DNA of 64,000 nucleotides, taken from assembly GCA_037043015.1 (NCBI GenBank), contig CM073321.1:7584001-7648000 (forward strand). Direction: 5' to 3'. The position numbers and the translations under genes were made by a program. The DNA is from Bryum argenteum (Eukaryota; Streptophyta; Bryopsida; Bryales; Bryaceae). This document shows positions 365 to 30,215 of this stretch, in pieces (position 1 is the first letter of the stretch; each line of letters opens with the position of its first letter). Below the pieces are notes generated by a model, which had not been told where the DNA came from, did not search any database, and worked only from the letters and a program-made list of their open reading frames with translations.

Positions 365-910
365 CTCTTCGATTTGGAGCCTCTAGATGTGAACATCAAT
401 GAATGCATCCTTGCGAATGATTAATACATCATTCAAACCTTTCAAAAGGACATCATGGAGAGCGTTAAGGTTAGTCGTGTCTATATGATTGACGTTTGGC
501 AGAGACAAAAGGCTTGCTTGACGCCTGTTGATAAGAATAATCAACTTCTTAAAAGGAAGCCTTCGAAGTGGGAAGATATCAAGGATGGAAATTTCATGAT
601 CATAAACGGCCAGCACAGCATCTTCGCTTCGAAGGCACTTCAGACTGAAGGTTGCCGAGCAAATTGCTGTGAGAGACTTTGCACATGGAGTGCATTCATC
701 GTGTGGTAACTCGATCCATCTCGGCTGAGGGCTATTTCCAAATTCTATAACATCACAAACCATCTAGACCATGGCTGCCAAGCCAACATGGGACAACCAG
801 ATTGTGAGTTGTAGAAACATTTGGACCTCGCTCGATCGTCCCTCCGAGTACAGCCTTTAAGACAAAGAGAGGGGTAACGGCGCTGTCTTCAACAAGGCAA
901 ATTACAAAGT
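365..910 (+). pseudogene. ParB-like N-terminal segment of locus L1 (broken)
   Basis: The plus-strand frame from about 365 reads FDLEPLDVNIN and then, after an in-frame TAA near 422, continues through an ATG at 455 into WEDIKDGNF and MIINGQHSIFASKAL (about 570-640). The pattern hydrophobic-x-N-G-Q-H-S-I-x-A-S matches the G-x-[RH]-R-x-x-A box of ParB/sulfiredoxin-fold domains. That resemblance is by eye and is inference. The frame then meets a TAA near 708, but WDNQIVSCRNIWTSL (about 788-830) continues in another phase, so there is also a frameshift or intron. It lies directly upstream of a methyltransferase-like domain on the same strand. The segment cannot be translated intact. It could also be an unrelated protein with a chance NGQH motif. 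Confidence 0.4.
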
Positions 911-964
911 TAGTTTGCATTCCCGCTTGTTATTGTCGGGTCAAAGATAAGGTTTTTCTACTAC

Positions 965-2343
965 TTGATCGATTCTTGTAATCTAGCTTGTGTTGACTTA
1001 CTTGAACTTTCTGGTAAAATTCAGTGTTTCACGGACGCTGTCATGGAAAGATTCCAGAACATCAACCCCGACGGTGAAGGAGCTAAGATTCAATCCTTGA
1101 AAGATTTGAAGAACGAGCTCCAAATGATCACTTTGCCGGATAATATCTGGAAGCACTGGCAGAACTTCCTTACCTTGCACCACGACGGGGAAATATTGAC
1201 CCAACCACGATGGAGCCCTACAAGCTCGCCAAGGGGTACAAGAGGCACGTTCTGAAGCGCGAGTTCTTCAAACGCTTCGGTTGGTTCACGGACAAGGACT
1301 TTCAAACCGTGGTTCAGCATCTGCTTATGTTGACCCCCGGTCGAAATGCACAGTATCCCAAGATCTCAGTGCACCGAACAAAATTTCTCGTTTCCGACAA
1401 CATGTTGAGCACCGATTGGGTTGAGCGGCATAAGCGCAAGAAGGTGGTGATGCAGGAAATTGTGGATCTCAAGCCTTCACTCAAATTCGTGGACAGTGGC
1501 GGTGATGTAATAAAGTCAATGTGGTGGGTCTGGAAAGCTAGGCACAAGTTTACGTTGATTACATGGGATCATCTTAACGCACATATACATGCGGATTTCT
1601 TCACAAAAAGACTCCGCAATGAGGCAAGACATAAGCATGCAAAAGGTATGGTCGACGTTCATTTTGTAGTACAGTTTATGATGAAAAGGTTTATGGCCTT
1701 GAAATACCGATTACCCGGGAGTGCAGGAGGAGTACAAATGAGAGAAATAGACTGGGCCAACAGGGCGTTTGTTCACAGATCTATTTATACTTACACTAGT
1801 CGGCCAGTAAACCTCGCTGTATTGGATGTTCGGAACATTCCACGTTGCCCCGCGTCCGACACACGAAGCGCCATCGATCTATTATTGAACTTCATGCAAC
1901 ACGAGTTCGAGCCAAAGATCGATACTCCAAAGATTTGGCTCTTCATCATTCTCAGCAAGGACAACATATGGGTCGCCTCAACATTTGCTGCTCGGGAGCT
2001 CTTCGGATACGAGACGAAGGTCTCTACATACACCCCCGCTGAAGTTGAAATGCTAGACAACGTGTCAAACCGGTCTGTTTCTCCGGAAGTGACACTGCTC
2101 TTCTTGTTCAAGAAGGGCGACGAGCTTGCCGATTTAGCAAAGAACTTGATAAAGGATACATATTCCACCCCCGCAACTTGTTTGTACTATAACAACATCG
2201 CCAAGAATACAGAGGCAAAGTGGAGGCATTACGCAAGTGAACTCCGCATGGAGTTTTACCTTGAAATACTTCACGCGTGTGCCTCACCCCATGAGAAAGT
2301 TATCGGGGTTTACACCGAAGCAAAGTTTCTTCTAGCGGCAAAG
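965..2343 (+). pseudogene. Beta-class DNA-methyltransferase-like domain of L1
   Basis: A linker frame runs from 965 to about 1200 (PDNIWKHWQNFLTL) and is offset by one base from the long frame that starts with ATG at 1210, so a frameshift lies near 1195-1210. The long frame (~378 residues to the splice site) shows, in order, VNLAVLDVRNIP (about 1806-1840), KIWLFIILSKDNIW (about 1925-1970) and HEKVIGVYTEAKFLLAAK (about 2290-2343). The order of a motif IV-like strand followed by a C-terminal motif I-like strand is that of beta-class N4/N6 amino-methyltransferases. DPPY/SPPY and the FxGxGxT loop are both degenerate, so catalysis is doubtful. The exon ends AAG|GTAACG in phase 0. Locus L2 at 26-30 kb shows the same order with better motifs. 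The assignment is inference from motif order. Confidence 0.42.
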
Positions 2344-2637
2344 GTAACGACACATCCTTCGTTATCGTCGGGTCGACGATAACCTTTAGTTTGTACGCAG
2401 CTCTCGGATTGTATTGATAGTGATGTTCCCATTAGCTAGCCTTTATCGTCGAGTCGACAATAACCTCCAGTGTTGTATGTCGCTCTGGGATTGAATTGTT
2501 AGAAATGTTCTCGTACGCTAGCTCATATTGTTGGGTCGACGATAACACTTGACTTGGAAGTTGATATCGTCGGGTCGACTATAACATTCCGACTCGTTTC
2601 ACACTTTTAAAATGATTGCGTAATCATTTCTATGCAG
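2344..2637 (+). repeat. Intron of L1 filled by ~81-bp palindromic tandem repeat
   Basis: The donor AAG|GTAACG (2343/2344) and acceptor TATGCAG|GTC (2637/2638) join two open frames in phase 0. Inside are four copies of an inverted repeat with arms like GTTATCGTCG and CGACGATAAC around a 3-base centre, beginning near 2361, 2442, 2524 and 2563. The spacing is about 81, 82 and 39 bp. The first copy is perfect over 10-bp arms. The sequence between copies is also related, for example GCTCTCGGATTG near 2400 and GCTCTGGGATTG near 2483, so this is a tandem repeat rather than isolated palindromes. Related sites lie near 4135 (TATCGTCG-AAC-CGACGATA), 4245 and, degenerate, 928. Confidence 0.65.
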
Positions 2638-4246
2638 GTCTTCACAGCGTACTCTTTTGGCTTCACAGACCAGAAGAAAGTGAAAGGAGCCTTAAAACTT
2701 GTAGGAGTCGCAAACAAGATGGACAAGAGCAATTTTATGTTTGCCTATTCTCCATACATGAGCACCTACAAGCGCCCGAAGAGTCGCCTGTCCGTCATCG
2801 TACACTCTCATTCACCCCCTCCTCCGGCATTTTTGTGCAGTCACCCAACGAGCTATTACCTGCAACTGTTGGACAGACTGAGTGTGTGGGTCCTCATGTC
2901 TCCAACGATCCTGGAATTGAAGGTCTCGATCAGTTCGGAACTGTTGTTGTCTTCCCCCAAATTGTCCCTAAATCCAACACAGAAAGGGAGTGATGTGAGT
3001 TTGGCACAGGACAATCCCGACGAATCCGACGATGATGCACAACCAAGGGAGGCGATTGAAGCTAAGTCAGATTCTGACTCAGAATCAGAGTCAGGAGTAA
3101 TCCTGCTCCATCTCCGGCGCGCACTTGTGTACATCCTGGCAGAGAAAGTCTAAACGACAACAACGCAATCGTGCCATACGATGAAACCGTTGCGGATATT
3201 GCCATGGAACAGCTAGATGACACCACCGGAGTCCATCCTCTCAATGATATCCTTGCAGAACTTGTCAGGAAGGCCGTTGAAGGAGTCCTTGAGAAGGCTT
3301 TCGATGAGTCCGACGATCAGGAAAATGCTGCAAACGCTTCGATGGATGAAGCTATTCGGGAGCAACATGATGGAGCTGGCGCTTCAATGGAAGAAGCAGT
3401 CGCGGAGCAGGCTAATGACGATTTAGTCCCGGGGGATGCTGAACAGCAGAACGACGAGGTTGCGCTAGATAGACAAAACAACATTGAGCCTTCTAGGGCA
3501 CAACAAGAGAGACCTGTTGAAGAATCGGAAGCTGCTCGCTTGGGTGACGCTGCTGCAGAAGAGGAGGAGGTCGTGAACGATGACGATGTCACGATCTCCG
3601 CAGTAGTCGAGAAACAACCTCCGGATCCAAAAGACATCATCAATTTGAGTGATAGTGAGTTTGATATTCACTCTTCGGATAGCGATGATGAGGAGGATGA
3701 TCTTCTCCCACCCGATATGAAAGCTCATGTTGTCAAGGGGAAAACAATAAAGGTCGAGATGGACCAGTGGGGTAGGGAGACGACGAAGTTAGATAGGAAG
3801 AAGAAGCGGCGGGAGGCTAAGGCACAAAAAGCTGCGGAGGAAGAGAATGAGCGTCTAGTGGCCCAGAAGAAGCTTGCCGATGCTGAAGACGCAATTCAAC
3901 TTGCGACGAAAAGGTTGCCCAGGTTGAGGCTGAGGCTGCAGCGAAACTTCAAGCATTTCAAGATGAGGCAAGAGAGCAGTTTAAATTGTTGCAAAAACGG
4001 ATGGCTAAGTTCGCTGTAGCGGCTGCTGCCTCTCAAAGCAAGTCACTGCCGGCTCCGCTAGCTGCCAGTGTATCTCTTTTGACGCCGTCCATGAGCGCTT
4101 CTCTGCTTGAGCCTCAACGAGATAATTTCCATGTCTATCGTCGAACCGACGATATGTCTGAGACATCCTCTAATGCCGGCATCCTTTCAGGTGATGATAA
4201 GCTTGTCGTCACTATTGTTGCTGAGGTTCAGCAGCCTGAGGTTTAG
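2638..4246 (+). pseudogene. Acidic, Ser-rich and coiled-coil region of L1 (frameshifted)
   Basis: After the intron the frame reads VFTAYSFGFTDQKK and continues to a Ser/Asp-rich stretch (SDSDSESESG, about 3068-3095). The following coding sense lies in another phase: RSNPAPSPARTC... into PYDETVADIAMEQLDD from 3171. A long acidic domain (DSDDEEDD near 3680-3705) is followed by a Lys/Ala/Glu-rich heptad region (KKKRREAKAQKAAEEENERL, 3795-3860). Near 3905-3915 the frame shifts once more: the annotated phase degenerates into RLRLRLQR, while the neighbouring phase keeps the heptads (AQVEAEAAAKLQAFQDEARE) and runs to a TAG at 4244. At least two frameshifts therefore break it. A similar coiled coil lies just 5' of the HAD domain in L3 (55.2-56.0 kb). 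The function is unknown. Confidence 0.5.
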
Positions 4247-4742
4247 CGTCGACTCGACGGTACGACTCACCTCACTCAAAAAGCTTCTGCTATTACAGAA
4301 GCTGGCCAAGCACTTGGTGCATCCGATTGGTGGACTACGAGTTGGAAGCTGAGGACATCGCCGTCACTCGACAAGAAATCCCCCCTCCTCCTTCCGATCA
4401 ACCTCCCGCCATTGATCATCCCAATCAGGTACGGGCATCTGACCCTTATTATTTTGGGCGATTCTATATTGCATGGAGTCTTCCATCTGGCACTCTAGAA
4501 ACTGGTTCTAGTTATGTTTTCTAAAGTGAATTCATTCGTCTTAATATGGTGTCAACACCGGATCATGATGACTAGCGCGCGGACAATGTTTATGATGCCC
4601 AGCTCCGGAATAATATATGCGTGCATCATCTGCTTACCTTGGAAGCTGATCGCTCCTATCCACTCCAGGTCTCCTCTATCTCATCATTTCATCAGGTATC
4701 ATCATATCTTTGTTAGTTGTGTATTGAATCGGGGGTAGGAGG

Positions 4743-5084
4743 GTGATCGCTCCGATACCGCCGCCTCCCCCGCGGAGGAAGTGGCTGAACCTTGTCTTCG
4801 ACTTGAACGGTATACTTTGTCATACAGCGTTGAAGACGACGCGTGTTGGACAAAGGTCGTACAAGTTGGAGGACACTATCCTCTACCACCGAATTCCAAC
4901 TATAGTCAGTGCTAAGGTGGTTTTTGCCCGACCAGATCTTGGAGAATTCCTACGCCACGTTTTCTAGATGGCAGATAATGTCGTAGTGTGGACCTCAATG
5001 CAAAAGTGGAATGCGGAAGCCATTTTTGGCTACCTCTTCCGCGGTACGAAAGGTCCTATCGCGATCTTGAGCCAAGAAAAATGA
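4743..5084 (+). pseudogene. FCP1/NIF-type HAD phosphatase-like fragment of L1
   Basis: The frame reads PPPPPRRKWLNLVFDLNGIL, then KVVFARPDLGEFLRHVF, a TAG stop at 4965-4967, then in the same frame MADNVVVWTSMQKWNAEAIF to a TGA at 5082-5084. DLNG corresponds to HAD motif I (DxDx), and VVWTSM to the motif II region of the FCP1/SCP family. The nucleophile Asp is kept, but the second, acid/base Asp is Asn, so a working phosphatase is unlikely. Motif III and the C-terminal Asp pair are absent because the sequence ends. There is no ATG at the start; a splice acceptor is likely just upstream. L3 carries a fuller relative at 53.8-54.7 kb. The family assignment is fairly secure; the role is unknown. 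Confidence 0.6.
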
Positions 5085-6545: not shown

Positions 6546-6554
6546 CTGGACCGG

Positions 6555-6815
6555 CGGTCGCCTCGTCTAGACTGGCGGTCGTCTCGGCTGGACCGGCGGT
6601 CGCCTTAGCGCCCGACTATCGCCCAAGGTCGACCGACGATCGCCCATGAGCGACCGACGATCGCCCATGAGCGACCGACGATCGCCCATGAGCGACCGAC
6701 GACGCCAGAAGCGATCGGCGGTCTCATTGAACGGCGGTCTCGGCCCCACCGCGGTCTCGCTTGACCGGCGGTCGCCTATTTTCGCCCCTGGACCGGTGGT
6801 CGCCTAGGGTCGCCT
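6555..6815. repeat. GC-rich dyad-box cluster 1
   Basis: The cluster mixes GACCGGCGGTCGCC boxes and GCGACCGACGATCGCCCATG boxes. The second type is repeated at exactly 21-bp spacing (starts 6650, 6671, 6692, with a truncated copy before). Each box is a near-palindrome of the form GCGAyCG-N-CGrTCGC. It lies directly upstream, in minus orientation, of the TATA-bearing segment at 6105-6545. Confidence 0.75.
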
Positions 6816-7217: not shown

Positions 7218-8770
7218 CTAATAACTGTCCTCTCTAAATACAGACTCCGGTGTAAGCATATGATATGATTTCCCCATCAAGCGGTTCACCACCTCCCCAC
7301 AGGTCATTCTCTTCTCCGATTCATGCCTGGTCAGTGATAACACTTTTGATAGGAATGATTCTCGCACCGTCGAATTCAGAAATAATTCTTCGTCGAATTC
7401 GTTTTTCACACCAATCAACTGGATGAGCTTGCCAACCGCATACGAATCTGATGCTATTGTGGTTGGATGTCGAAGTTCCTGGACGTTCAAATTTGTATCA
7501 GAACTTTTAGGTCCATAAGTATAGATCATCTCGGGCGCCACCCACCATCGACGTGCCATATCTTCTTCTTTTTTTCTTCTCCGTCTGGTATCCGTAACGT
7601 GAAGGCTGTTGTTCTACTATACGAGATGCCATCCCCTAGTCACACACTCCAATACAAATCTTGTCTTCTCCGACAGTTGGGAAATGCAATAGTATGTTCG
7701 AGGGGGATAGGTCGTTGTGAAGTACTCCTGTCTTATGCACGAGATTCATGATGTACACTAAACCCCAAGCTAACTTCATCCTATGCTGACGGAAAAGGCT
7801 AATTCTGAAAGCCTCCTCTTGAGTGAGACTCGGAACTTCCTTTGCTTTCGACCAGTGAAGATGTTTGTCGCCGACCTTCTCATTCTACTTCAACATTTTG
7901 TGTAGTGATCCTCCATTCCACCAATATGAGTAAGCTTCGAATGTCCTTGTATGCAACGCCCAAAACTTGATAATTCCTGGATGATTCAAAGGACATACAA
8001 GAGCTTCTGCTGCAGTCTCTATCCTCCTCTTCTGAATATTCATATTCTTGGAAAGCTTTTGCTGCAAACTCGATATGACCTGGAACGTGGTCTACTCCAA
8101 CAATCTTTACCTTCCGCACCAGTCCATGGCCTCCCTCCATGTCGCGGGCTGATAGAGCTTCTATCGTAGCGTCTTGAGGAATCCACACCACCCCCGACCC
8201 TGTGTCTCGTTCAAATGTGGCGCACAAAGCGGTTTTTTCCCATGACATCCCTCGGGTTTTATTTTTGCTAAGCTTTTGGACATAGAGTTGCCACCAATCC
8301 ATCTTGCGTTTAAACTGGTCCTCCTCTTGTGTTAGACGCCTCTGTCCAAATCGCTTCTTCTACAACTCTTTTACATTGAAGATGCGTTGTTCAATTGTAT
8401 TCTCCATCCACAACTGGTAGTGCGAATGATAATCCACATCTTGGAATTCATCCGATTCCGCCATGGCCTTCAAAATTACCGCCTCCAATTTCTTCTTCAG
8501 TCTCCCTTTGCCCGTGCTAACATTCTTCAAGTAGTTGTGCTCTAGGAATTGAGCCTCCATTTCCTCATACCAATCCAAGCATGCTTTTTCCGCAAACCTA
8601 GTATAATCTGATGTTGGGAATCCGGGAGCTACTTCTTCTGAGTGCCTCCTCTTCCTCCTATGGCCTCCACTTCCACTAGGTTGTTGCATAGCAATGTCTG
8701 GTGCAAATGTTTCGGGGGCATCAAGATCCCATGTTCGTTGTCCCTCCTGATGCTTTTTGGATTTACTCAT
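7218..8770 (-). pseudogene. Protein kinase-like gene (decayed)
   Basis: The minus-strand frame starts MSKSKKHQEGQRTW (ATG at 8770). A TAG at 8360-8362 interrupts it, and the same frame continues with MDWWQLYVQKL. Kinase features follow: a glycine loop GGHGLVRKVKI (about 8134-8102), the Lys strand EFAAKAF (about 8065), a frameshift near 8055, then LNHPGIIKFWALHT and WWNGGSL. Further on are a catalytic loop LHNDLSPSNILL (about 7720-7685), VCD-stop-GMASR with TAG at 7636-7638, an APE segment RRWWVAPEMI (about 7553-7524), and ASDSYAVGKL. The stop sits where the DFG-type motif expects Trp or Phe (D-W-G), so TGG became TAG. HND replaces HRD. The N-terminal ~170 residues are unrecognised. It diverges from WCHI copy A across a dyad-box cluster and has its own TATA box. 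It cannot be translated intact. Confidence 0.7.
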
Positions 8771-8948
8771 CGTTGAAATTCTTGAAAAAACCGGCAAAAA
8801 ATCTCCCCCCTGCTATCAATGTGCACCAAACCCCAAAAACTCCTCAGACGACCCGGCAGTGCGCATCATTAAGACGAGCAAGGACACTGGGCGGAGGAGA
8901 GTTCGGTAGCGGTTTGGAGAAAAGTAATATCAAACCCGCGCGTTGGGG

Positions 8949-8959: not shown

Positions 8960-9190
8960 CTGGAGACCGGCGGTCGCCCTACAGTCGCCCACCGCCGGTC
9001 GCCCCAGGTCCCGCTGTCGCGGCAGCTGCACCGGCGGTCGCCCTACCTCCCGCTGTCGCAAACAGCTGCACCGGCGGTCGCCTTACCTCCTGCGTCGCAA
9101 CAGCTGTACCTGCTCTCGCGCCCTCACTGAACCGCCGGTCGCCACGCAACGTCGTACCTCTATCTGGACCGCCGGTCGCCTTGATTTTGT
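8960..9190. repeat. GC-rich dyad-box cluster 2 between divergent genes
   Basis: Repeated boxes such as GACCGGCGGTCGCC, CACCGCCGGTCGCC and GGACCGCCGGTCGCC, with partial copies, fill the space between the divergent kinase (-) and WCHI A (+) genes. TATA boxes face outward at both edges. This looks like a shared bidirectional upstream element. Confidence 0.75.
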
Positions 9191-9303: not shown

Positions 9304-9347
9304 TTTTGGGTAGGTAATAACTATTCGCAATTTTGGCTATTTCATCC

Positions 9348-10838
9348 ATGGCTACTCTCGAGCAACTTAGGAAGGAAGAGAACGACAAGAAGAGGAAGAG
9401 GAAGGGCGCTCCACAACGGAAAAGATTACACGTGCTTCAAAATCCAAATAAGCTTGCCTTCAGAGGTTGGGAAGATGAACCAGATATGTGGACGATGGCC
9501 ACTTGCGAATCGTTCATTGAATGGTGTCACATTGACAAGAAATTCCCTCTGTCTCGTCACCATTTTCATCAGCGCACCAACAAGGCAAATCTTAAGTTTT
9601 GCGATTGCCCAAACTTCAAACAACGATGCATTGAGGTTTACCAAGTCCTGTATGGCATGCCATGTGTGGAGCGCAACGAGGTTCCATTGTTTCTTGCTCG
9701 TGGAGTATACGCCGAGGTTGCTCTTGGTAAACGAGTGGATTGGACAACTGTCAAAGAGGGGAAGCATGTAACACGACCTTCAACAAGTGACATTCCGACA
9801 GGCATTCTAAGATTCCCTGACGCTCCTAATGGTGGCATGGCAGTGACGAGGTCTATTACCAAGGCTATGGAAGAGGCTGCCTATCATAGTGCTACATCAG
9901 AAGAGGACGATGATTCGGATGGTTCGCGGCCTCGTAAGGCGGTGCGTCAAGTACAACAACCTCTTCCTCCCGCCAGCGTTGTGATTGATGCGGATCATCG
10001 TCGTAATTTACCTGGCCGCGTTCCTGAAATAGGTGGCTCTCGCCCTCCAATAACAAGTAATCACCCACCCGTAGTAGAGCCCCATGGTACTAGCATCTTA
10101 CCATTGGAAGAACTTGACACATCTTCCGATCTCAAAGCTCTTCTGAAGAGCAAAGACGACGTCATAGCAAGATTGCAAGCGGATCTCAAAAAAACACGAG
10201 CAATGTATAAGGAGAAGGTGAAAGAAGGGGACCGGCTTTCCGTGGAATATGCACACATGCGCGAGAAGAGGCAAGAACTATCTCACCGACGTAACATTTG
10301 TGGAGATATAGAGAAATTGGACATGGCGGATGTTGATAGAGTTGTCTTCAACCTTACAGAAGACTCAGCATTTGGAGAAATGTCACCGCAACGCCCTAAA
10401 TTGCGCCGTCCTATGAAAGCTCAGCCATGTGTTGTTAATATGTGTGGCTTCGAACGAGAAGAAGATGTACAAAGTGATTCCCAAGATTCTTTATCTTTAT
10501 CTTTGTTCCCCCCTATTCGTAATCCCCCTTTCATGTCCTTTGATGGATACAACTCCTTACTAAAGGAAAAGCAACAACTGCAAGCTCGTTTGGAGCAGTT
10601 GTCAGCCACTTACTACCATTGGAAGGTGGCATGTATACTTTCGGTGGACAGAGGCAGACAAGTTGCAGCGGAGCTGGAGAAGATCCATAAGAATTTTACT
10701 AGTGGAGCTGGTCGACGAACGTTCGGTATGACCTCGTGGCCGAGTGTGGATACATTGTTTGATAATCTTCCTATCATGGACATCAAGATGCAAGATGACA
10801 CTTCTACAGAGGTTGTAGATTGGAGCAAGGCCGGGTAG
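9348..10838 (+). CDS. WCHI family protein, copy A (intact, ~496 residues)
   Basis: I do not recognise the family. An ATG at 9348 opens MATLEQLRKEEND, a basic stretch KKRKRKGAPQRKR, and a conserved domain of about 130 residues: HVLQNPNKLAFRGWE, ATCESFIEWCHIDKKFPLSR, NLKFCDCPNFKQRCIEVYQV, NEVPLFLARGVYAEVALGK, VDW. Conserved Cys/His positions and the basic N-terminus suggest a nucleic-acid-binding domain, which is inference. An acidic Ser-rich linker follows (SEEDDDSDG), then a coiled coil (about residues 265-310 and 410-440). Three other copies (B, C, D) are in the window, all broken; this one has no internal stop. Upstream lie a TATA box and dyad cluster 2. A RING-H2 frame starts 45 bp after the stop. 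Confidence 0.6.
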   Translation: MATLEQLRKEENDKKRKRKGAPQRKRLHVLQNPNKLAFRGWEDEPDMWTMATCESFIEWCHIDKKFPLSRHHFHQRTNKANLKFCDCPNFKQRCIEVYQVLYGMPCVERNEVPLFLARGVYAEVALGKRVDWTTVKEGKHVTRPSTSDIPTGILRFPDAPNGGMAVTRSITKAMEEAAYHSATSEEDDDSDGSRPRKAVRQVQQPLPPASVVIDADHRRNLPGRVPEIGGSRPPITSNHPPVVEPHGTSILPLEELDTSSDLKALLKSKDDVIARLQADLKKTRAMYKEKVKEGDRLSVEYAHMREKRQELSHRRNICGDIEKLDMADVDRVVFNLTEDSAFGEMSPQRPKLRRPMKAQPCVVNMCGFEREEDVQSDSQDSLSLSLFPPIRNPPFMSFDGYNSLLKEKQQLQARLEQLSATYYHWKVACILSVDRGRQVAAELEKIHKNFTSGAGRRTFGMTSWPSVDTLFDNLPIMDIKMQDDTSTEVVDWSKAG

Positions 10839-10882
10839 AATTTCAAACACCACATGTCGGCACATGTTGATGTAGCATCCAG

Positions 10883-11680
10883 GACATTATTGTGGCCCAA
10901 CCTCCGCAGTTTGTATTGGATCACTCTACGTGTCCTATATGCCTAAATCCATTTGGACCTGAGGGTGGATGGGCTTTAGGCACATGTGTCCATATGTATC
11001 ATCTGCAGTGTCTCTTAGTTCATTGTTTGACTCAAAGTCGTTGTGCTATATGCAAAGCGCCTTTTCACGAGCGGTTTTACGAGATGTTCAATCTAAGAAC
11101 TTATATGCCGCCTTCTTGGGAACACAATGCTGAGACTACTGACGAGGTTCGATTCTGGGGTAAAGACCTTATTTGGAGTTGGCTTAGAGGTGAACATGAT
11201 CTCGAGAAGAGTACTCCTAGCTCCCAATTGAATTGGGAGACTGACCCAAACGAGATTCTAAGAGTTGCACCAATACTTGCCGGACAAGGTCCACAGCATG
11301 AGGGTAATCGGATGTTCTTCTTCCAATGCCTTGGAGGCTATTTTGATGTGAGCTCTAGTACATTCAAGTGAAGGCCCCACCCAATGGAACATCGATGGAA
11401 TCAATATGGGAAGAGAGTAACCGACGGTGAAGGTCATGCCTCCATGGAAGATTTGGAAGAGTGTCAATATGCTGAGTCTACTTGGGGGCCACGATACCAG
11501 TCTCAAGCTTTAGACTATTTATTGGATGTACATAGTCCCCTCACAAGAAGGACTTTGCAGGACTTGAAAGACTCTATAGTCTTAGATCTGATCTTAAATG
11601 CAGATGGTCCATTTAATCGAACTCGTGCAAAGCGTAAACTTCTTGTTGGAGAATGCTCCAACCCTCAGTCTAGTGAATGA
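10883..11680 (+). pseudogene. RING-H2 finger protein downstream of WCHI A (one internal stop)
   Basis: The frame has no ATG before the RING. A CCAG acceptor-like site at 10879-10882 suggests it starts as an exon. The RING reads CPICLNPF, GTCVHMYHLQC and CAICKAPF, with zinc ligands C-x2-C, C-x-H, H-x2-C and C-x2-C (about 10934-11065), which is the C3H2C3 type found in E3 ubiquitin ligases. The frame then runs about 100 residues to a TGA at 11369-11371 and continues in the same phase from RPHPMEHRW to a TGA at 11680. The internal TGA can derive from CGA or TGG. It may be the second half of a WCHI-RING gene joined by splicing, since the two lie on the same strand with a 45-bp gap. No substrate can be inferred. 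Confidence 0.6.
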
Positions 11681-12186: not shown

Positions 12187-13419
12187 TTATGTTGATGTCA
12201 ACTTTTGCGTTATTTTACGATGAGCCCACTCTGCCCATGCGTCCTCGAATCGAGCATTCTCCTCAGCTACATGTAGTTGCTTCGCGAGTTTTACATTCTG
12301 GTCTTCACTCCATTTTACCAGCCTCTTTAATTTGTCAACTTCCTCTGGAGTCTTGCCATACTTACCCGCAAATGCCAAATCACGAATGCGTAGCATCTCT
12401 TTATCTACCTCTAGAGCAATAGATTCTTCAATATCCATCAACCGATCCCTCCTCTCGACTAGGACCCCTTCCAGGTAAGTATGTTTCACTGTCCAGAACT
12501 CTTCGTAGTCTTCTATGGAAAGGTTGTTTGAATGTTTCTTCTCCAAAAACTTCTCACGAGCCTCTTTTCGTAGCACAAGCATGGTCTCCATGTCAGCTAT
12601 GCTGTCTAGAAATTTTTCCGAAATCTCCCGACGGTCTTCTTGTACATCGTATAGTTCAGTGGTAGAAAGGGCTCTTTCTTTGAGGGCTTCCAATTCCTTT
12701 CTGTGCTGCACTACTTCCTCCAATTGCACGTATGTTCCTATACTGAAATTGTGCAAAATGATAAAAGAATCTATGAAATTGGATAATCTTCCACCCACTG
12801 TTCGGAGTGGATTTGACTCATAGGAAATCCGCTCCATCCAATTTATTGGAGGACCAGTTGGTTCACTCAGTTCACTGAGCTCGTATTCGTGTGTGTGTTC
12901 ATCCTCCGAGGATTCGGAAGAAGACCCTGCTGTGTAAAATTCTGCGTTGGCCTTAGGACTCATAGGATTAGTTCCAATTCCATCTCCTTCAATAGTCTTT
13001 GATGTCTCTCCAACCTCTATTGGTTCGGTCTTCTCTTGTATAGGCAAACGTGGATGCGTCCACCAATCCACCTCCTTCCCGAGAATCATTTCCGCATATG
13101 CCATTTTTGCCAAAAAGTAGGGAACTTCATATTTAAAAATATGGTTGTTACCGTATATCAAATGCCAAGCATATATGCATCTTGCTTTAAATAGTTAATG
13201 ATGGTGCTCTCGGAGGTTTGCTTCATTCTTCTGCCAATGAATATTGTGCCGATGTAGAGGAAAGAGCTTGTTGATGTGGCACCACTCCACATATTTCTCA
13301 CATGTGGCAAAAGACCACGGCCCCGTCTCTTCCTCCCATCCTCTAAACGCTAATATCTTTGGATTCTTCAAGATGTCTATGCGCTTCTTCTCAATCCGAC
13401 CTCGATCATGGCGCACCAT
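12187..13419 (-). pseudogene. WCHI family, copy B (single in-frame stop)
   Basis: On the minus strand from the ATG at 13419 the frame reads MVRHDRGRIEKKR, KILAFRGWEEE, CEKYVEWCHINKLFPLHRHN and NEANLREHHH. It meets a TAA at 13195-13197 and continues in the same frame as LFKARCIYAWHLIYG and EVPYFLAKMAYAEMILGKEV, with VDW conserved. An acidic linker (SSESSEDEHTHEYE) and a long coiled coil (about 12700-12200, KRLVKWSEDQNVKLAKQL) follow. One stop alone breaks a ~410-residue protein. The upstream promoter module is at 13486-13530 and dyad cluster 3 is beyond it. It is divergent from copy C. Confidence 0.6.
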
Positions 13420-18775: not shown

Positions 18776-18814
18776 TTTGACAAATACGCTGGGAGGAAGA
18801 TTAGTCCTTGCCCA

Positions 18815-19050
18815 TGAGCTGGACCGCCGGTCCCCCACTGACCTACGTTCGCCCACCAGCTAGATCGGCGGTCGCCCCAGCGACCGGCGTTCGCCCGTCC
18901 GCTGCATCGGCGGTCGCGCGATCCAAAGGTCGCGCCCCCAGACATACGTCGCGCCCTCTGACCGAAGGTCGCCTACCAGGTGGATCGGTAGTCGCCCCAG
19001 CGACCGACGCTCGCCCATCGGCTGGATCGGCGGTCGCCCTAGCACCAGGG
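18815..19050. repeat. GC-rich dyad-box cluster 5 upstream of WCHI D
   Basis: Alternating boxes TGGACCGCCGGTCCCCC, AGATCGGCGGTCGCCCC and AGCGACCGACGCTCGCCCAT show roughly 21/42-bp spacing. The cluster ends about 60 bp before the promoter module of WCHI D. Confidence 0.75.
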
Positions 19051-19154: not shown

Positions 19155-19324
19155 AGCGCTAAAGCGTGCGGTGATTGGCACACACGTGCCACACGTGTAC
19201 TTTTTACACATACGTGCTGCACGATTTTCGAGTTTTTCAAATTCTGTGTTAGTCCACGGAATAGATATAACTTTGTTTTGAGTTATTTTAAAAAAATTCT
19301 TCCTTGGTTAGTATTTGGGTGACG

Positions 19325-20002
19325 ATGACGCCTAGCCAGGAGCAAAAGATAGCGAGAGACAAGGACCGCAAGAGGAAAGGAAAGAAGCAAAGGAGATTTC
19401 ACAAGATTCTCATAGATTCCACGCAACATGCTTTTCCGGGGTGGGCGCAAGTGGAGGGACCGTGGACCCTTAAGACTTGCAAGTGGTACATTGGTTGGTG
19501 CCACATCGGCCATTTGTTTCCACACTATCGTCACGAGTTTCATCGCCGCCTGAATTGCGCAAATTTGCACTATTGCAATCACGATGAATCTGTGCAACGA
19601 TGCATTGAAGTGTGGAAGTTCCTCTACGCCGGTGTGCATGTGGTGAGCAACGAGGTTTCGTACAACATAGCACAAATGGTGTACGCGGAGATAATTTTGC
19701 ATAGGGAGGTGGATTGAAGGACGTTAAAAAAATCCCCTCAAACAATTAAGCCAACAGAACCCCATATTCCGCTAGCTCCTTATCTAGCGGCCAATCCACG
19801 AGAAGGTCTTACAACGCCTAGGGGTTACAAAGGAGGAATCCCTGATGAGGACATAGTTTGGTCAGATTCGGAAGAAGAAGGGACCGAAAGGCGAGAAGTG
19901 GATGAAGGGGAGCCGAACCAAACGATGGAGGAAGATGAAGCACATTTGGATGAAGGGGGGCCAAGCCAACTTTACAATGAAGGGGGCCCAAGCGAAGAAT
20001 GA
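19325..20002 (+). pseudogene. WCHI family, copy D (short, one stop)
   Basis: An ATG at 19325 opens MTPSQEQKIARDKDRKRKGK. The conserved domain is the clearest of the four: FPGWAQVEGPWTLKTCKWY, IGWCHIGHLFPHYRHEFHRR, NLHYCNHDESVQRCIEVWKF, NEVSYNIAQMVYAEIILH. A TGA at 19715-19717 follows VD, where copies A-C have Trp (VDW), so TGG became TGA. The same frame continues through SDSEEEGTERREVDEGEP to a TGA at 20002. The coiled-coil part present in A-C is missing, so the copy is truncated 3' as well as nonsense-mutated. Confidence 0.6.
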
Positions 20003-20863: not shown

Positions 20864-20952
20864 GTCTATATGTGCAAAGAGTAACTTGAGCCCTTGTAGT
20901 GCGCGTTGTCGTCACCAGTTTCATTGCACCGGCGGAGGTGCGATTCCGGAAC

Positions 20953-23900
20953 ATGGAGCATTCTTCCCAATCCAACGGGGTAGCAGATAATAGAAGAGAC
21001 ACTCGCAAATGGGACGATTGGCTACAAGTATCCACGGAACGGAACGACAAGCCAAATACTCGCGTGTGCTTATTTTGTGGGAAAAGCACAGTCTTTGTAA
21101 AGCAACAAGCATTTGCTCATTTCGGATATCCTCATAATTCCCCATTACCCCGGTGTACGAGGTTACCCCGTGGAGTTCTCGAGCTATTCCGTGACTGCGG
21201 AGGGATGGTTCCAAAGAACAACATTCCTTATGCGGATGTTGTTCCTGACTCACGAGTGGATGCCGGCATACCATATGTGGCAAGGGAAACTATAGAGAAC
21301 ATAGATTCCCCTCGCATCAAGTCTGCACAAGTGCCATCCCCTAACCTAAGGTCTCATCAGGTGCCATCCTCTAACAAGGGGAGTTATGGCAGCAATGGAC
21401 AAAGGATCTCTACACTCTCTAGTGGACATGGGCAAAGGAGTATGGAGGATAGTTTTGATCTTGCCACTAGGCAAAATTTGGATGCAAAGTGGGCTTCATT
21501 TTTCTATGAGGCAAACATTGCATTCAATGTCGTACGACATCCAGCATTCATAAGTGCCGTTCAAGAGACAACAAAGGCTGGTATTGGTGGATATCAACCA
21601 CCCTCGTATCATGCTATAAGGACTACGATGCTCGATGCGAAGAAGGCAGCTGTGCAAACGTCGGTAGAGGATCGAACAAAACTTTCTATCGAGAAGTACG
21701 GAGGAACAATATGCTCAGATGGGTGGTCAGATGTCACAAGTAGACCACTCATTAACATGATGCTTGTTTGCCCAGTGGGAGAGGTGTTTCTGGGATCAGT
21801 GGATACTACAAGGAAGAAAAAGGACATCGCTTATGTGGCAAATGAAATGACGAAGTACATAGAGGAGGTTGGACCACAAAACATCGTTCAGATATGCACA
21901 GACAATGCAAGCTCCATGTTAGGTGCTGTGAAGAAGTTGCAGATAGACTATCCTCACTTATATGGACAAGGTTGTGCAGCACATATTCTAGACCTCCTTC
22001 TAGAAGATTGGGGGAAAGAGGCATAGGTTAAGCATTTGGTGGAGCAAGCCAAGAGAGTGTGCACATTTATTAAAGGGTCGCACGTCCCACTTGCTCTATT
22101 CAGGAAGTACTCGCCAAAGCTGCAGCTCAAGGTACCACCTCAGACTCGATTTACAACAAACTAATTGGTGATAGAGCGGTTGTTAAAGCTACAACAACCT
22201 CTGAACAACATGGTGATCGATGCGGAGTGGCATGTGTTTGTCCAAACATTGTTCAACAGGCAAAACAGTCACCAGTTACAGACAAAGGCAAGGAATGTGC
22301 GGAATAGCATTAGGAGCGATGAGTTCTGGGAGAATTGTACGAAGTTTGTGAAAGTAGTTGAACCAGTACTCATAGCTCTTCGGGAGTTTGACGGGGAAGT
22401 ATCAGCCATGCCTAGGGCGTATGTACTCATGTCGGACCTTAACGAACACGTGTTCTCTTTGCGTGAACCTCCATTCAAACTATCCCCCGACATTGCTACA
22501 AAATACGAGGATGCATTTCAAAAACGATGGGAAATGATGCTCACAGACCTCCACTATGCAGCAACTTTGTTGAACCCTTATTTGACAAATATGGGAGCAA
22601 TTCAAAACAATGGAGAAGCAAAAAGAGCTTTCAACTGGGTCATAAGGAAGCTTAGCGCCCTTATGGGAGTAGTCTATGAAGAAGTGGTGAAAGAACTCAT
22701 ACAATATGGGGAGAGGACGGGTCCTTTTAACACCAATTCAGAGGCCCCTGATCCAGCTCAGTGTGACTTGTTACCACATCAATGGTGGCATCAAGTCAGG
22801 GGGAATTCCTTGCCAAAAATTGCGAAGAGGATTTTGGCATTGACATGTTCAGCTTCATCATGTGAGAGGAATTGGAGCATGTACTCTTTCGTGCACAACA
22901 AAGTGAGGAATCGGTTGTCAACTTCCAAAGCAGAGGACCTTGTGTACATCTATGCGAACGCCAAACTCGAGCGCCAGAAACGTACCAAATCGCCGAGAAC
23001 GTGGTACTAAACTTATTTAGAAGAAGAGGACTCTGACAAAGAAGACTATGTACCGGACAATGAATGGGATGATGGTGTATTCATGGATAATCCGGAGGCG
23101 GATGACGACAATTATCTCAATGACGGTAGCGAACACGACGACTTAGAGAATTGGAACGACAACGAAGGAAACATGACTATTCATGTCAAGGACCCGTTTG
23201 AGTTCGATGACGACCAGGATGTTCCACAACTGCCTCGCCAGTTTGCGGTATTCGCCAATGACACAGAAGGAGAAGGATTGGCAAATTTACAACTCCAAGA
23301 GAGTACCTGCCTAGCGAAACAAGACTTGGTAAACCGGATGGATGAAGAGAACATTGGTCCACTCAAAGGCAACCCACACTCTAACAACGACGATAAACTT
23401 GAGAGTGTGAAGTGCACGGTTACCACGGCCGGAGTTCAAATGGACCAATTTAAAGTGGAACCTGACGATGTATCCAATTCAGGTTGCATGGAAGTGGGGT
23501 CACCTAGAGTTTCAACCATTCGATCAAGGAATTCAACTCTTAACGGAGATGACTCCGATGTTCCTCTACACAATTGTTCCCAAGGGTTACCCAACCTAAA
23601 GGGGCCCATACAACTCATATGGTATTGCCGAAGATGGAGGTCAAGATAGAACCAACAAGTCCAACATGCACCCGGGCATTAGCAGTGGCACGAGACGTCG
23701 GGCCATCTACACAACCTCGCAATCGTATTACACGACGCCAAAAGCGTTTGAGGAAGGCACACGACCGACGATGTCGGAAAGGAGCACGCGTACATGAAGA
23801 AGTCCATGCGGGGATTGCTTCATCCAATAATCCGAATACACGTACAATGCGCCATCTACCACTGAACGCAAACGGGATCACCAATGCTTAACGGCCCTTG

Positions 23901-24439: not shown

Positions 24440-24735
24440 GTCACCACACACGCGGTGGCCCAAGGCGACCAGCGATCGCCACATGGGCGCTACCCCCAGG
24501 GCGACCACCGATTGCCATAAGCGACCGACGATCGCCCTGGGCGATCGTCGGTCGCTCACTACTGGACCGGCGGTCGCCTAGTAGCGGTTGCCAAGGCGAC
24601 CGCCGGTCTCCATACTGGTCCGCCGGTCGCCTACGTGCGGCAGCCAGGGCGATCGGCGATCGCAGCAGGCGACCGACGTTCAGCCCTGTGCTACCGTCGG
24701 TCGCCTAGCAAGGTCGCCCACCTGCGGTCGCCCAC
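24440..24735. repeat. GC-rich dyad-box cluster 7
   Basis: Boxes such as AGCGACCGACGATCGCCCTG, GGGCGATCGTCGGTCGCTC, GGACCGGCGGTCGCC and AAGGCGACCGCCGGTC occur in both orientations. It lies immediately upstream of the promoter-like segment at 24770-25210, as cluster 1 does for its relative. Confidence 0.75.
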
Positions 24736-24769
24736 TGTGACGTGTATTTTGATTTTCACGTCATTATCA

Positions 24770-25210: not shown

Positions 25211-25247
25211 ATCTCACCTCCAACTCGCGCCGTATGTGGAATGCACG

Positions 25248-25285
25248 GGTGTGAGCGGAGAGCGGTGAGCGGTGAGCGGTGATTG
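25248..25285 (+). repeat. MULE-type terminus-like motif (left orientation)
   Basis: GGTGTGAGCGGAGAGCGGTG followed by AGCGGTG repeats. The reverse complement of this motif closes both MULE copies, at 40652-40681 and 44606-44628. It may be a left terminal inverted repeat of a related element. Confidence 0.4.
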
Positions 25286-25903
25286 GCAGAATTTTTTTTT
25301 TTTCATGAAAGATTAAGACTCTATTACCACTCATTGTACTTGGGATAGTGACCCTATGACCATTGAGTTAAGGGTGGTGAAATATATTTGGGAATAGTTT
25401 GATCGAAATGAGTACCCCAAATCCGTGAAGTTAGATCCTATTTCCGCGCAAAAGTATTGTTGGCTCCATTCCATAACGCCTCAAATAAAACTATTCAAAA
25501 GTTTTCACATTTTTGTCAATGAATTAGGGCTAACGTCATCGCTTCTCACCTTATAAAATTTGAAGCCAATTTTCCTTTGATTAAGATGTGAACTTTTTTA
25601 CACATTTCGCTTCCGGTTATAAGATCGCGAGAATAGATACACGGATGCATTGAAATTGGAGTTGAACGAGTTACATCAAAATTAGAGCTGACGTCATCGT
25701 AAGAGGCAAGCATGGCATTGATTACATAGTATTGACATACTTAGATTAATACTTGAAGCACTTAGTGTAGATTATGCTATAAATGATAATCACAACAAAT
25801 AAAAATAAAAAACCATATATATAGTATATAAGTAATAGATAATGGTAAACTACGAATGTATGGCGCTACCATGTCCAGTACCTATCAGCAAACAAATCAC
25901 ACA
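25286..25903. other. No gene recognised
   Basis: Non-coding, AT-rich sequence between the terminus-like motif and the 3' end of L2. Confidence 0.35.
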
Positions 25904-27200
25904 CTAGGCAGAAGGTGTAGTACGATTAAAGTGCTGATCACACTCATCAGCCTCAAAGTCTATAAACTTAAGCACACTATTGCTATAACGTGTACGTGGA
26001 GTGTCAGAAAAAATCGGAGATGGAGCTTGAGCAAACTCTTGAGCAAGATGCTCAGCGTATGATGGAAGGGTGAATTTTGATGGAGGGCTCTTATAGAGAT
26101 GAGCAGTGCGAGTCAATCGTTCTTTCACACCTGCGATCCTAAAAGTACAAAGAAAGTCAATACTACAAATTTGTAAGTGTGTAATTTGAAATTGAGAAAG
26201 ATAATAGAAGATGGTATTATGCACCAATGAACTTTCATGGCTTCTTCACGACCGGTTCGTCAGAGTCATAATCTGCGGGAGGGGCAAATTCTCCACTTTC
26301 TTCATCACCGGGAGGACCATTCTTGTAATCCGCTAGTGCACCATAAAAGATTTCTTTGTAAGGTTCCATAGCGATGAGGTGTCGGTTGGAGCGCGCGCAA
26401 GTAATTACAGATGCACCGAAAATTCAGAAGCCCACGTTAGAAATGCAAAATGTATAAATGAATTCTACTGTAATGTTTACGGAAACATTACTTGTACTTG
26501 CGCTCCAGTCGAAGACTATACCCCCATCGTCCGTGAGACAATCCACGAAACACTGAATAAAGGAGGGGTCCTTCTCTCATGAGCCTCGCCATGGCGTACC
26601 GTCTGGACGATAACAAAATGTCTCTTTGTCTGCAAAGTTACAGAGATGGTCTTCCTCATTAGGTACAATTGCCACACCGCCGTATGCATGAGCCACTTGC
26701 CGAGTTTGGAACTTCGGAACAAATCTTTACGTATATAAACTTTGATATAGAAGCAGTGAGTGTGCAAAACACAAGTATAGGTACATAAACATAGAAGCAT
26801 AGAAGGCAATAATCATGAATGGAGAAATTGGAAACTAGAATTTGCTGCGTACCTCTTTCGGTTTAGGTACGGTAGAGGCCATAGGAAGGGGATTATATCT
26901 CCACCAGTCTCGAACAAGACGAAAACTATATGTATGCGACTCAGAATTGAGAGTACGCTCGATTCTACAACATTTTGGATGCATAACAAGAATGGCTCCA
27001 ACGTCTGTCAAATGATACGCGACAAAGAAGAAGAGGCTTTCAAAGTAGTTTTTGTCACGCCGGTTCCAAGATGGAATTTCTGTTGGAGACACACCCGGTA
27101 CATGCAAGTTCTCGGGAGCGTCCGCAAAAATGAGACCAATCCTTGGATGCTTGGGATCATACTCCAGCTCCGAACACGGGTACTTTTGGTCCTTTCCAAT
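25904..27200 (-). pseudogene. L2, 3' half: beta-class DNA-methyltransferase-like domain
   Basis: Exons read on the minus strand. Exon 27200-26853 (after TCTCAG) has IGLIFADAPENLH, a motif IV-like strand where DPPY/SPPY is expected, then VGAILVMHPK, and ends GAG|GTACGC. Exon 26711-26492 has VAHAYGGVAIVPNEED, a TGA after WRGS, then FVDCLTDDGGIVFDWSAST (motif I-like). The next exon continues ASVITCARSNRHLIAMEPYK, to a TGA at 26235; its acceptor appears lost (TTTTCG|GTGC where CAG is expected). A last exon from about 26119, joinable through that stop, ends at 25904. The order motif IV then motif I plus ...C-R-x-x-R-H is that of beta-class N4/N6 amino-methyltransferases. The degraded catalytic motif and the stops argue against present activity. 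Confidence 0.5.
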
Positions 27201-27335
27201 CTGAGATACAAGTCAATATTTAGATATTGGCTCATAGATTTACAAGTACATAACGTAATTAGGGAGATTATAAATGAGAGATTTACAAAATAGTACCTTC
27301 TTGATGTACTAGACGATATCGAGGATTTGCGAATC

Positions 27336-29248
27336 TCAATTTCCAGTCTTCAACGATTGATGAACCAAATCTCCAATGTTCCCCTTCTCGAGATACATAG
27401 GTAGAGTGACTGATATTTTCGACGACGAGCTGCTACCAATGTGATTGGGTTTCGAAAGAGGGCGTTTGGCAAATATTGGTTGGCTGAGGCAACGGAGGGA
27501 CTCCAGAGAGTTGTGGTCAACAGTGAATGATTGAGAGGGGGACCCAGCATTCGGAAGCCCACCTGCAGAAAGTTGAGTCAATCTTGCACCGCGTCGAATT
27601 GCATTGTTTGTGGCTCCGTCTGAAGCCTCAGTCAGATCAACATCTTCTGGGCTTGCAATGTCTTCTAGAAGGGGAGCAATTTCTTCGGATTCTTGCTCAA
27701 GATCTACTATAGGGTCTGATGGAACGTTGCGTCGCTTCTTGTTTGCTCGAGACTTTGGGAGTGCAACAGGTGAAGAAGCTGAAGAGATTGGATCACGTGC
27801 GTCTGGTAAAATAGAGAGGTCATCATCGTCATCGTCGTCAATCTCCATCGGTTCAGAGTTGGTTGGGTTTGAAGCGAGGTTCCAAAGAAGATGCTTCTCC
27901 TCAAGGAACCATCTACCGGTCGTCAGTTGGGAGTTGGTAAACCGCTCTTGTTGGGCTGGTGAGAAAAAGGTGCGGGGATCATTTGTGACTGAAATGTCCT
28001 TGAACTCCACTGGAATGGAGAACGAAGCTAATGCTCCTTTGGCAACGAGCTCTTGTTTTAAGTACTCAGAAAAATGTAAACAAATTAGACTGTGAAAATT
28101 GAATACGTTGTACCATTTTTATTAATATTTTATAGGAAATTGGATACATACCGGAATAAAAGTCGTTTATTTGTAGCTTTGCCTCCACTAATCTTGTAGA
28201 TATCCGAGCCTTTAATGAACTTGCATTAGGAGCAAGATAGTTTCCGAATGCCTTCTACCATAAGAGCAACCTTCACTTCTCGATATATGCTGATAGTTTC
28301 AGTACAACACTAGACCACTCAATGTTGAGGTTCTCGTTATCAATCAAATTTTGCAATTCACTTTCAAGTGATTGCTGTAGCTAAGAATACACGAAACATC
28401 TAATGATATAAAGTAACAGATAAATTCAAATATTCTACTCACGGAACAAAAATGCAAGTTACATGTGCCCAGAAAGAAGCCCGATGAAGAAATGCAACTA
28501 AAGTTCTATCTTTCATAGGAGGTTCTTCTAGGAAGCGAAATGATCGCCGAACTTCGTTAGGTGAGTTCCACCATTGCAGCCACTTTGCCTTGAAATCAAA
28601 GTGAACATTGGTAGTGGCTACCATGTGTAAGCGATCTAGCGTCATATCGGGGTTCAATTTTTGGCAGTAATGAGAATAAATCTGCACATAAGAATCACAA
28701 TTTTGATTAGAGCAATAGAACATAAAGACGGAAACAATGATATGAAATCGAAGAACTCAGCCACCTATACCTCTTTTGCAAAAACTTTCCCGAGTTTGTT
28801 ATTAGCCACAGCGACCATCTTGTCGAAATTCTTCCCACGTATTGATTTGATTTCAGCCTTGATTGCGTTATCCATGGCACTCCATACTCCCGGTCCAGTT
28901 TGTTTCTCTTTTGGAACCGTGGCGTAGTACGTAGCTTCAGCATCGTCCGATTTTTTTGCTAACCTCTTCTATATACCAAGCAGAACACAAATGAGAAGTT
29001 GTTTTAAATAAATTTGAGGGAGAAGAGTCTAGCACATATGCAGTGAATGTATCGCGTATAGAAATATTTCAAAAACGTCTTTTGTGACAGGATACCAAGT
29101 CTCCTTTTTTGCTTTGGCGTTCTTACAGATCCTGTAATCCTCTGGAGAAATGAGGTCTTTAAAATCTTCGAGTTTCAGTTTACGAAACTTCCTCATGTGT
29201 TGCAGTTTTGCACACAAACAGTCTTCGACATGAACCTGTTCAGTGGAC
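27336..29248 (-). pseudogene. L2, middle exons (unrecognised)
   Basis: Consistent splice joins support exon 29248 to about 29045 (STEQVHVEDCLCAKLQHMRK), exon 28963-28771 (LAKKSDDAEATYYATVPKEK, ending GAG|GTATAG) and exon 28681-28443 (IYSHYCQKLNPDMTLDRLHM, ending CC|GTGAGT). The exon near 28390-28150 (LQQSLESELQNLIDNENLNI) carries a TGA and a TAG, at least the second in a W/K-rich context. The last exon starts near 28050 (YLKQELVAKGALASFSIPVE) and includes an acidic patch (EIDDDDDDDLSILPD) and a basic patch (KSRANKKRRN) before it decays near 27340. It links the ParB-like exon to the methyltransferase-like exons. I do not recognise a domain. Confidence 0.5.
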
Positions 29249-29334
29249 CTACAAAATGGAACATTATATGAGAAAAGTTGTTTATGACAAAACCATAAAC
29301 TGTAATGATTTTAAGAAATGCAACATTTACTTAC

Positions 29335-30215
29335 CAGTTTATGTCGTTCATAGCATCGATGAGGAGATTGCTCTCTCCACGGGCATCGAGTACGATGCAA
29401 TCAACCGAAATGTACCACGAGGTATCATTCTTGTGGTACCTCTTGATATGGCGCATCCACGCTGTAACGCGTTGGTTCCCTTTGTAGACATAGAAATATT
29501 TGTCACTAAGGTCATGAAGATCAGGATCGGACCGCGGCGAACTCTCGAACTCTTCATTAGCAGCTCTCCAAAGTGGGTTCGTCGAAAGTTCATCTTGAGT
29601 GTCAACAATTTTTTCTCGGCCTTTCCTATCAAAGAGAGACACGTACATTACCCGATCGCCTTCCTGGTATCCTTTGTTGAACTCATTCTCCAATTTTCTG
29701 ACGTCTTGTTTTGAGTTCGAGCGAACCTTCGGATAACAAACAAGGCGACACAATGGAATAAGCATTCGAGACTTCTCAACAAGTTTGTAGCGTAACATGT
29801 TTATGATTGCAATGGAATCACTTTTGTGAAGCATTCGCATCTTGTTCCCACTCTAGTCGGGGTCCTTGTTCTGAAGATGTGTAGGCATGTGAATGATTCC
29901 AACGTTGACACCTTTAGACAATGTAGTTTCTTCATCATCCGAGAGGGAATGGTGGTCATCATGGTCTTGAGTTGGAAGATGAATATCTGCACCTTCGAGA
30001 GGATTGTTACTTGAAACTGCATTGCATTTGCCTTCCATAGGTTGGCAATCAGTTTCCGAAGGACTCTCTTGCGGAACTCCAGTTCCCAAGTCTTTGACGT
30101 TTCTCACACTATCAAGTATGAGTTCATCCCCGTCGGAAGATACAGTTTGTGGAGGATTAAGAAGAGGCAGGTTGGCTTCTTCATCTTGAATAAGATGGAC
30201 TGGAGCTAAGTTCAT
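29335..30215 (-). pseudogene. L2, first exon: ParB-like domain
   Basis: From an ATG at 30215 (MNLAPVHLIQDEE) the frame passes an acidic, His-rich region and a TAG at 29853-29855, then continues in the same phase as KMRMLHKSDSIAIINMLRYK. DKYFYVYKGNQRVTAWMRHI (about 29505-29446) fits the ParB/sulfiredoxin-type box G-[NE]-x-R-x-x-A, and DTSWYISVDCIVLDARGESN follows as a beta strand and loop. The exon ends CTG|GTAAGT (29335) and joins G|TCC at 29248 in phase 2. ParB-like domains often precede DNA-methylase domains in phage and bacterial proteins; finding both in one intron-containing plant gene is unusual. The domain call is by motif only. Confidence 0.45.

Follow-up and report, generated by a model that had tools for sequence, protein, structure and literature searches.

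VANC proteins, encoded by an accessory gene of the Mutator-like VANDAL elements of Arabidopsis, have an anti-silencing function. As described in PMC5735166, they bind element-specific motifs which build up as tandem repeats in non-coding DNA, introns included, in arrays that differ between related elements and also occupy introns of the accessory gene, and they induce methylation loss over the whole element. ParB-methylase fusions are known from bacteria and phages, for example Bacillus cereus Bce_0392, presented in PMC5512222 as a ParB/Srx-fold domain fused to an adenine-methylase fold. Here, we describe a related combination in a moss, in a 64,000-nucleotide stretch of Bryum argenteum DNA (the window; G000:C1:7584001-7648000, from an assembly of 258.8 Mb in 25 contigs, of which contig C1 makes up 44.1 Mb). 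It carries two genes, L1 and L2, which encode ParB-like plus methyltransferase-like proteins and belong, as accessory genes, to large Mutator-like transposons of two related families. Unlike the bacterial and phage fusions, the moss genes are eukaryotic, contain introns, encode a long linker, have a replaced catalytic motif and are borne by DNA transposons. The bdelloid rotifer N4CMT differs as well, being reported in PMC8885841 as an active host gene with an SPPY motif and a chromodomain. Among the matches listed from the open-licence literature, neither a transposon with ParB and methyltransferase domains nor moss element palindromes were described.

Both proteins have the same domain order: a ParB-like domain is followed, after a long linker, by a beta-class DNA-methyltransferase-like domain in which the usual catalytic motif is replaced. 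The ParB fold belongs to the ParB/sulfiredoxin superfamily, and its structure model for L2 is of low confidence. The methyltransferase (MTase) part has the permuted class I fold, with motif IV before motif I, and the whole L2 MTase domain can be aligned to active enzymes. The motif strings quoted in a first-pass annotation of the window were all found in place and on the right strand. In L1 these include VLDVRNIP (about 1818-1841, +) and KVIGVYTEAKFLLAAK (about 2297-2344, +), and in L2, on the minus strand, GNQR in exon e2 (about 29480-29469), IFADAPE, GAILVMHPK, GGIVFDWSAST and, past the next intron, GASVITCAR. These motifs are more than chance matches, because both genes recur in the same genome as codon-conserved families with supported relatives or folds.

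No single L1 or L2 exon reached a Pfam cut-off. The PF01555 check proposed in that annotation gave a match above the cut-off of 26.7 for a sister gene of L2 (L001/L040), with 28.8 and 27.6 bits. Scores below this cut-off were obtained for L037 (16.6 bits), P0001 (15.7 bits) and P0002 (14.5 bits), and PF01555 had no match in the L033 exons, the window exons or the L1 types. The sister gene, with DTPF at the catalytic motif, is present in two copies (L040 and L002, on C4 and C7), 98% identical over 3.1 kb. In profile searches against the PDB, the L2 ParB exon had no match and the L1 alignments only matches with E above 1, and a homology search with the L1-type protein L062 returned none of 6896 candidates at E 0.001. 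A comparison of the L1 and L2 profiles was not significant (score 16.1 vs a column-shuffled mean of 13.8 and maximum of 25.2); we relate the two because of the structure model and the common layout of their elements.

At the catalytic motif, the 32 distinct L2 copies read DAPE (28), DAPK (3) or DALE (1). DAPE is also present in the only two protein homologues found for the L2 family, both from Ceratodon purpureus and about 48% identical over 70%, which were retrieved from 5.8 billion sequences by a search requiring shared 5-residue words. The L1 types have DLR or DVR. The loss of the catalytic SPPY/DPPY noted in the first-pass annotation is thereby confirmed, and the canonical (S/D/N)PP(Y/F/W) is absent from the L2 copies, L040 and the L1 types alike. 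The intact SPPY/DPPY paralogues for which it had proposed a search were not found among the 32 L2 copies; the DTPF of L040 keeps an aromatic residue. The arginine of the G-x-x-R box is kept in the aligned L2 and L040 types (GNHR), and the L1-type boxes GQHS, GQHN and GQHH lack it.

The dN/dS ratio had a median of 0.12 in the L2 motif-IV exon (494 pairs), ranged from 0.03 to 0.13 in the ParB exon (10 pairs), and had a median of 0.26 for the window L2 copy against other copies. The L2 protein, without the canonical motif, is under purifying selection, and therefore the loss of catalysis is most likely a family trait, as judged from the sequences. The window copy is broken by in-frame stops at about 29853, 28275, 28255 and 26577, yet L034, L037, L038 and L039 are open at these positions and L035 shares the last stop. 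The stop codons represent decay of the window copy.

The L2 gene consists of at least 11 ordered exons and a probable first exon near 34.4-34.8 kb (Table 1). Genome searches gave at least 150 matches each for the motif-IV exon (150 of 972 first-look candidates scored) and exon e1 (150 of 555), and at least 105 for L1 (101 of 857). The listed motif-IV exon matches, the window's own copy aside, were 79-89% identical. Eight L2 stretches were fetched with flanks; seven of them (L033-L039) match the window over the L2 gene, L036 only from 29157 downwards, and the eighth, L040, is the sister gene. The L1 matches fall into two broad classes, a close one (37-87% identical) and a distant one (27-36%) found on many contigs. 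Among the matches listed, all but two of the close L1 class and 86 of 150 for the L2 motif-IV exon lie on C1, which is 17% of the genome. C1 might be a sex chromosome or have little recombination.

The transposon context is clearest for L2. In a comparison of the window with two copies, N1 and N2, colinearity extends over window positions 25634-30760, 33872-37037 and 38114-40695; homology continues beyond the variable tandem-repeat block, from 33.9 to 40.7 kb, and includes a transposase gene on the opposite strand. The terminal inverted repeats are short (about 40 bp) and imperfect, with the common core GGTGTGAGC. Nine other left-right terminus pairs, 10.8-20.1 kb apart, were taken from the listed C1 termini (two wider pairs, 25 and 29 kb apart, lie outside this set), and five of them enclose a listed L2 exon. 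All nine have target-site duplications (six exact 10-bp, one exact 11-bp, and two 10-bp with one mismatch); for Mutator-like elements (MULEs), PMC6446971 gives duplications of 8-11 bp. The transposase has 152 homologues, and the 120 listed ones carry no Pfam annotation. In 17 aligned homologues, D519, D585 and C614-x2-H617 are invariant, which resembles the D-D-CxxH pattern of MULE transposases. None of the 17 had a Pfam transposase match, and a search against the PDB gave nothing below E 0.8. We use the label Mutator-like because of the duplications, the termini and the D-D-CxxH-like pattern. A simple inverted pairing of the left terminus was rejected, as the flanks did not match in either of two candidate pairs (26 and 22.7 kb apart); its true partner is a different right terminus. 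A 341-bp sequence at 31152-31492 is inserted elsewhere in copy N1 (88% identity) and represents a short repeat.

For L1, a copy on C4 (L056, L063) is colinear with window positions 280-5083 and then 41343-42968. Next in the window come the C-terminal part of a transposase, which shares 64-69% identity with its counterpart in the L2-type copy N2, and, at 44619, a terminus. Therefore, one L1-type element seems to have been split by about 36 kb of insertions, the L2 element among them. The terminus at 44619 was also considered as the end of the L2 element and rejected, since it belongs to the split L1-type element. An intact L1-type gene is that of L062, with open frames of 996 and 694 codons. 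L1-type elements further contain an open reading frame (ORF) for a NIF/FCP1-like phosphatase (PF03031, E 1.6e-9 in L063), and both L062 and the window contain pieces related to it. Another, distant NIF/FCP1-like stretch (54261-54500, 25% identity, E 3e-5) lies within 53362-55984 (-), next to a charged, coiled-coil-looking ORF, and is perhaps the remnant of another L1-type element.

The first-pass annotation had interpreted the two genes as a lineage-specific, acquired or domesticated, methylation-related and now decaying family, which is partly supported. The only L2 protein homologues found are from Ceratodon and the folds are those of ParB and a beta-class methyltransferase, but the genes are transposon accessory genes, the canonical motif is replaced family-wide, and the decay concerns the window L2 copy, not the L2 family.

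Each of the four subfamilies examined has its own palindrome, which is repeated in non-coding DNA including introns and, in the L1 types, also in coding sequence. The palindrome of the L1 class to which the window belongs is TTATCGTCG-N3-CGACGATAA (the GTCG palindrome, 3-7 sites per fetched locus), that of L062, L064, L065 and L067 is TTATCCCCG-N3-CGGGGATAA (the CCCG palindrome; L062 has 16 sites), and a third L1 class, represented by the two loci L066 and L068, has TTTAGCTCG-N3-CGAGCTAAA. In L2 elements the palindrome is CCAGACTTGCGTCGACGCAAGTCTGG, which in the window recurs roughly once in each tandem unit; the parts fetched of L036, L039 and L040 showed none, and a candidate palindrome array for the L040 subfamily gave only two exact cores. 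At up to three mismatches, the window contains seven sites of its L1 palindrome and six of the L2 palindrome (0.01 expected for each). Genome-wide, at up to one mismatch, 457 (GTCG), 1722 (CCCG), 9509 (third L1 class) and 260 (L2) sites were found, and none with the reversed-pattern controls.

The palindromes are in part located near the matching gene class, as indicated by a co-location test of the GTCG, CCCG and L2 palindromes, which gives minimum figures from listed sites and markers. At least 34 of the 54 listed GTCG sites have a member of the close L1 class within 12 kb (mean at random 2.0), and none of the 54 is near a listed member of the distant class. Conversely, the distant class lies close to at least 20 of the 69 listed CCCG sites (mean at random 1.5), and none of the 69 is near a listed member of the close class. 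For the L2 palindrome, at least 23 of 41 C1 sites have a listed L2 exon no more than 10 kb away (mean at random 2.4). The remaining sites are not near any listed marker. When sites in L1-type loci were picked by one exact arm on both strands, a perfect palindrome counting twice, 28 of 36 GTCG and 36 of 36 CCCG sites had the second arm with no more than one mismatch. Conservation of the second arm was 0.88 and 0.99, respectively, vs 0.38-0.43 in the flanks and 0.52-0.66 in the spacer. The contrast is weaker for the L2 palindrome (0.82 vs 0.55-0.65, 38 sites), because its sites sit in tandem repeats. Palindromes within open frames, in L062 and the GTCG class, encode the peptides YPRAGDN and YRRPDDM. 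This is the pattern expected of sites that are bound by a symmetric protein and maintained by selection, and we regard the palindromes as putative sites of this kind.

The L2-type element resembles a VANDAL element in layout. It combines an accessory gene with a transposase gene, the presumed intron of the former contains a variable array, and element-specific motif arrays occupy its non-coding DNA. From this VANC-like layout we favour self-recognition with anti-silencing as the role of the L1/L2-type proteins, a reading that extends beyond the computed parts and to which we would give an even chance. The protein would recognise the palindromes of its own element, its methyltransferase fold serving DNA or partner binding instead of catalysis, and would protect this element from host silencing or recruit factors which erase silencing marks. 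A methyltransferase fold is also kept without an intact catalytic motif in the pseudo-methyltransferase METTL14, which unlike the moss proteins is a partner subunit for RNA m6A and not transposon-borne. In function, the system would be analogous to Arabidopsis VANC, and the FCP1-like phosphatase of L1-type elements could act on transcription. The likeness is one of layout, taken from the description of VANC; the moss proteins are ParB-like plus methyltransferase-like, their anti-silencing is proposed by analogy, and their palindromes have 9-bp arms with a 3-bp spacer, or are 26 bp long, whereas the VANC21 motif is described as the 9-base YAGTATTAY.

ParB-family proteins nucleate on palindromes and then spread, and the ParB-parS system involves CTP-dependent clamp biology. 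By extension, a ParB-fold protein fused to a catalytically dead methyltransferase fold might load onto its own palindromes, spread and shield the element from silencing, protein and palindrome having diversified together and the protection being restricted to each subfamily's own elements; we put this forward tentatively, as clearly less probable than self-recognition with anti-silencing as such. If anti-silencing holds true, transposons of another land-plant lineage evolved it separately from VANC, out of parts of bacterial or phage type. Matched protein families and palindromes are at hand, three pairs in L1 types and one in L2 types; gel-shift assays could then test directly how transposon self is discriminated from host, and the design of sequence-specific tools for the epigenome could draw on these pairs.

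Other roles are conceivable. The maize MURB protein assists its transposase, and the moss proteins could be similar helpers of integration or transposition, with the palindromes as assembly or enhancer sites. The L2 gene does adjoin and diverge from the transposase gene in the window and both compared copies, and extra ORFs of such roles in MULEs are mentioned in PMC6446971, but the palindromes are internal, in introns or coding sequence away from the element ends, and a helper role alone leaves three palindromes in three L1 classes unexplained, which makes it rather unlikely. Still more improbable is an active enzyme marking self by N6-adenine or N4-cytosine methylation at the palindromes through an unusual catalytic motif. 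Such activity would agree with an alignable MTase domain under purifying selection and with the aromatic residue of the sister gene's DTPF, but not with DAPE, DAPK, DALE and DLR/DVR at the catalytic motif; in the rotifer N4CMT, changing SPPY to APPA abolishes activity, according to PMC8885841.

To a nicking nuclease, whose ParB domain would cut DNA in aid of excision or against the host, we give an equally small probability. Bce_0392 is reported to nick DNA non-specifically (PMC5512222) and GNHR is kept in the aligned L2 copies, whereas the conserved arginine is missing from the L1-type boxes. An expanded, lineage-specific host gene family outside any transposon is very improbable. Purifying selection, and Ceratodon homologues that bear no transposon label, would suit it, yet it is contradicted by the target-site duplications, and the common termini and linked transposase also speak against it.

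Table 1. Coordinates of the main features, counted from the first nucleotide of the window
Feature	Position	Strand	Remarks
Left part of L1-type element: ParB-like + MTase-like gene, acidic/coiled-coil-like C-terminus, NIF/FCP1-like ORF	280..5083	+	colinear with L056/L063
L1 ParB-like exon	425..706	+	box INGQHS 602-619
L1 linker + methyltransferase-like exon	1144..2343	+	
Palindromes TTATCGTCG-N3-CGACGATAA, up to 3 mismatches	2362..4263	+	at 2362, 2443, 2525, 2564, 4135, 4243; a further one at 930
NIF/FCP1-like phosphatase fragment	4728..5081	+	window match below Pfam cut-off
Left target-site duplication GCGCCGTAT, eroded	25227..25235		8/9 bases as in right flank
Complete L2-type Mutator-like element, 15,458 bp	25236..40693		copies colinear; termini
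Left terminal inverted repeat, core GGTGTGAGCGGAGAGCGGTGAGC	25236..25277	+	253 genome sites (120+133), up to 2 mismatches; control 0
L2 exons e9-e10, motif I region VFDWSAST-GASV	26238..26724	-	in-frame stop about 26577
L2 exon e8, methyltransferase motif IV region	26853..27200	-	DAPE 27122-27111
L2 exons e3-e7, linker region	27338..29248	-	limits by eye: e3 29248-29036; e4 28968-28771; e5 28681-28443; e6 28380-28152; e7 28064-27338
L2 exon e2, ParB-like domain	29335..30215	-	GNQR in window, GNHR in aligned open copies; in-frame stop about 29853
L2 exon e1	30360..30676	-	at least 150 genome matches
Six palindromes CCANACTTGC-N6-GCAAGTNTGG	31114..33236		at 31114, 31813, 32163, 32513, 32862, 33211
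349-bp tandem repeats, presumed first intron of L2 gene	31489..33283		vary between copies
Probable first coding exon of L2 gene (MDAVSMGSERSNES...)	34445..34833	-	also in copy N2; limits approximate
Transposase gene, divergent from L2	35291..40200	+	37037-38114 absent from two compared copies
Right terminal inverted repeat, GGACGTAGCTACGGTGTGAGC (minus-strand reading)	40653..40693	-	374 sites (186+188), up to 2 mismatches; control 1
Right target-site duplication GCGCCGTAC	40694..40702		
Right part of L1-type element	41343..44632	+	third ORF 41684-42521; transposase C-terminus 43036-44207; terminus near 44619

The window has further repeats and ORFs. Recurrent arrays of related 16-53-bp units, with sequences such as CGACCGACGATCGCCC, are located at 6549-6706, 8990-9110, 13677-13924, 16793-17161, 18810-19043, 24495-24663 and 45896-45961. 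One of them contains, at 24528, the palindrome ACGATCGCC-CTG-GGCGATCGT, possibly a further element-specific 9-N3-9 palindrome. Near these arrays, ORFs at 9321-10838, 12187-13194, 14729-16069 and 19292-19717 look alike by eye, as members of a repeated gene family (WCHI..., NEV...MVYAE-like). A RING finger is found at 10871-11371 and hAT transposon ORFs (DUF659, Dimer_Tnp_hAT) at 20890-23010, and an ORF at 7218-7613 (-) resembles by eye the C-terminal part of a protein kinase (VAPEMIYTYGPKSSD).

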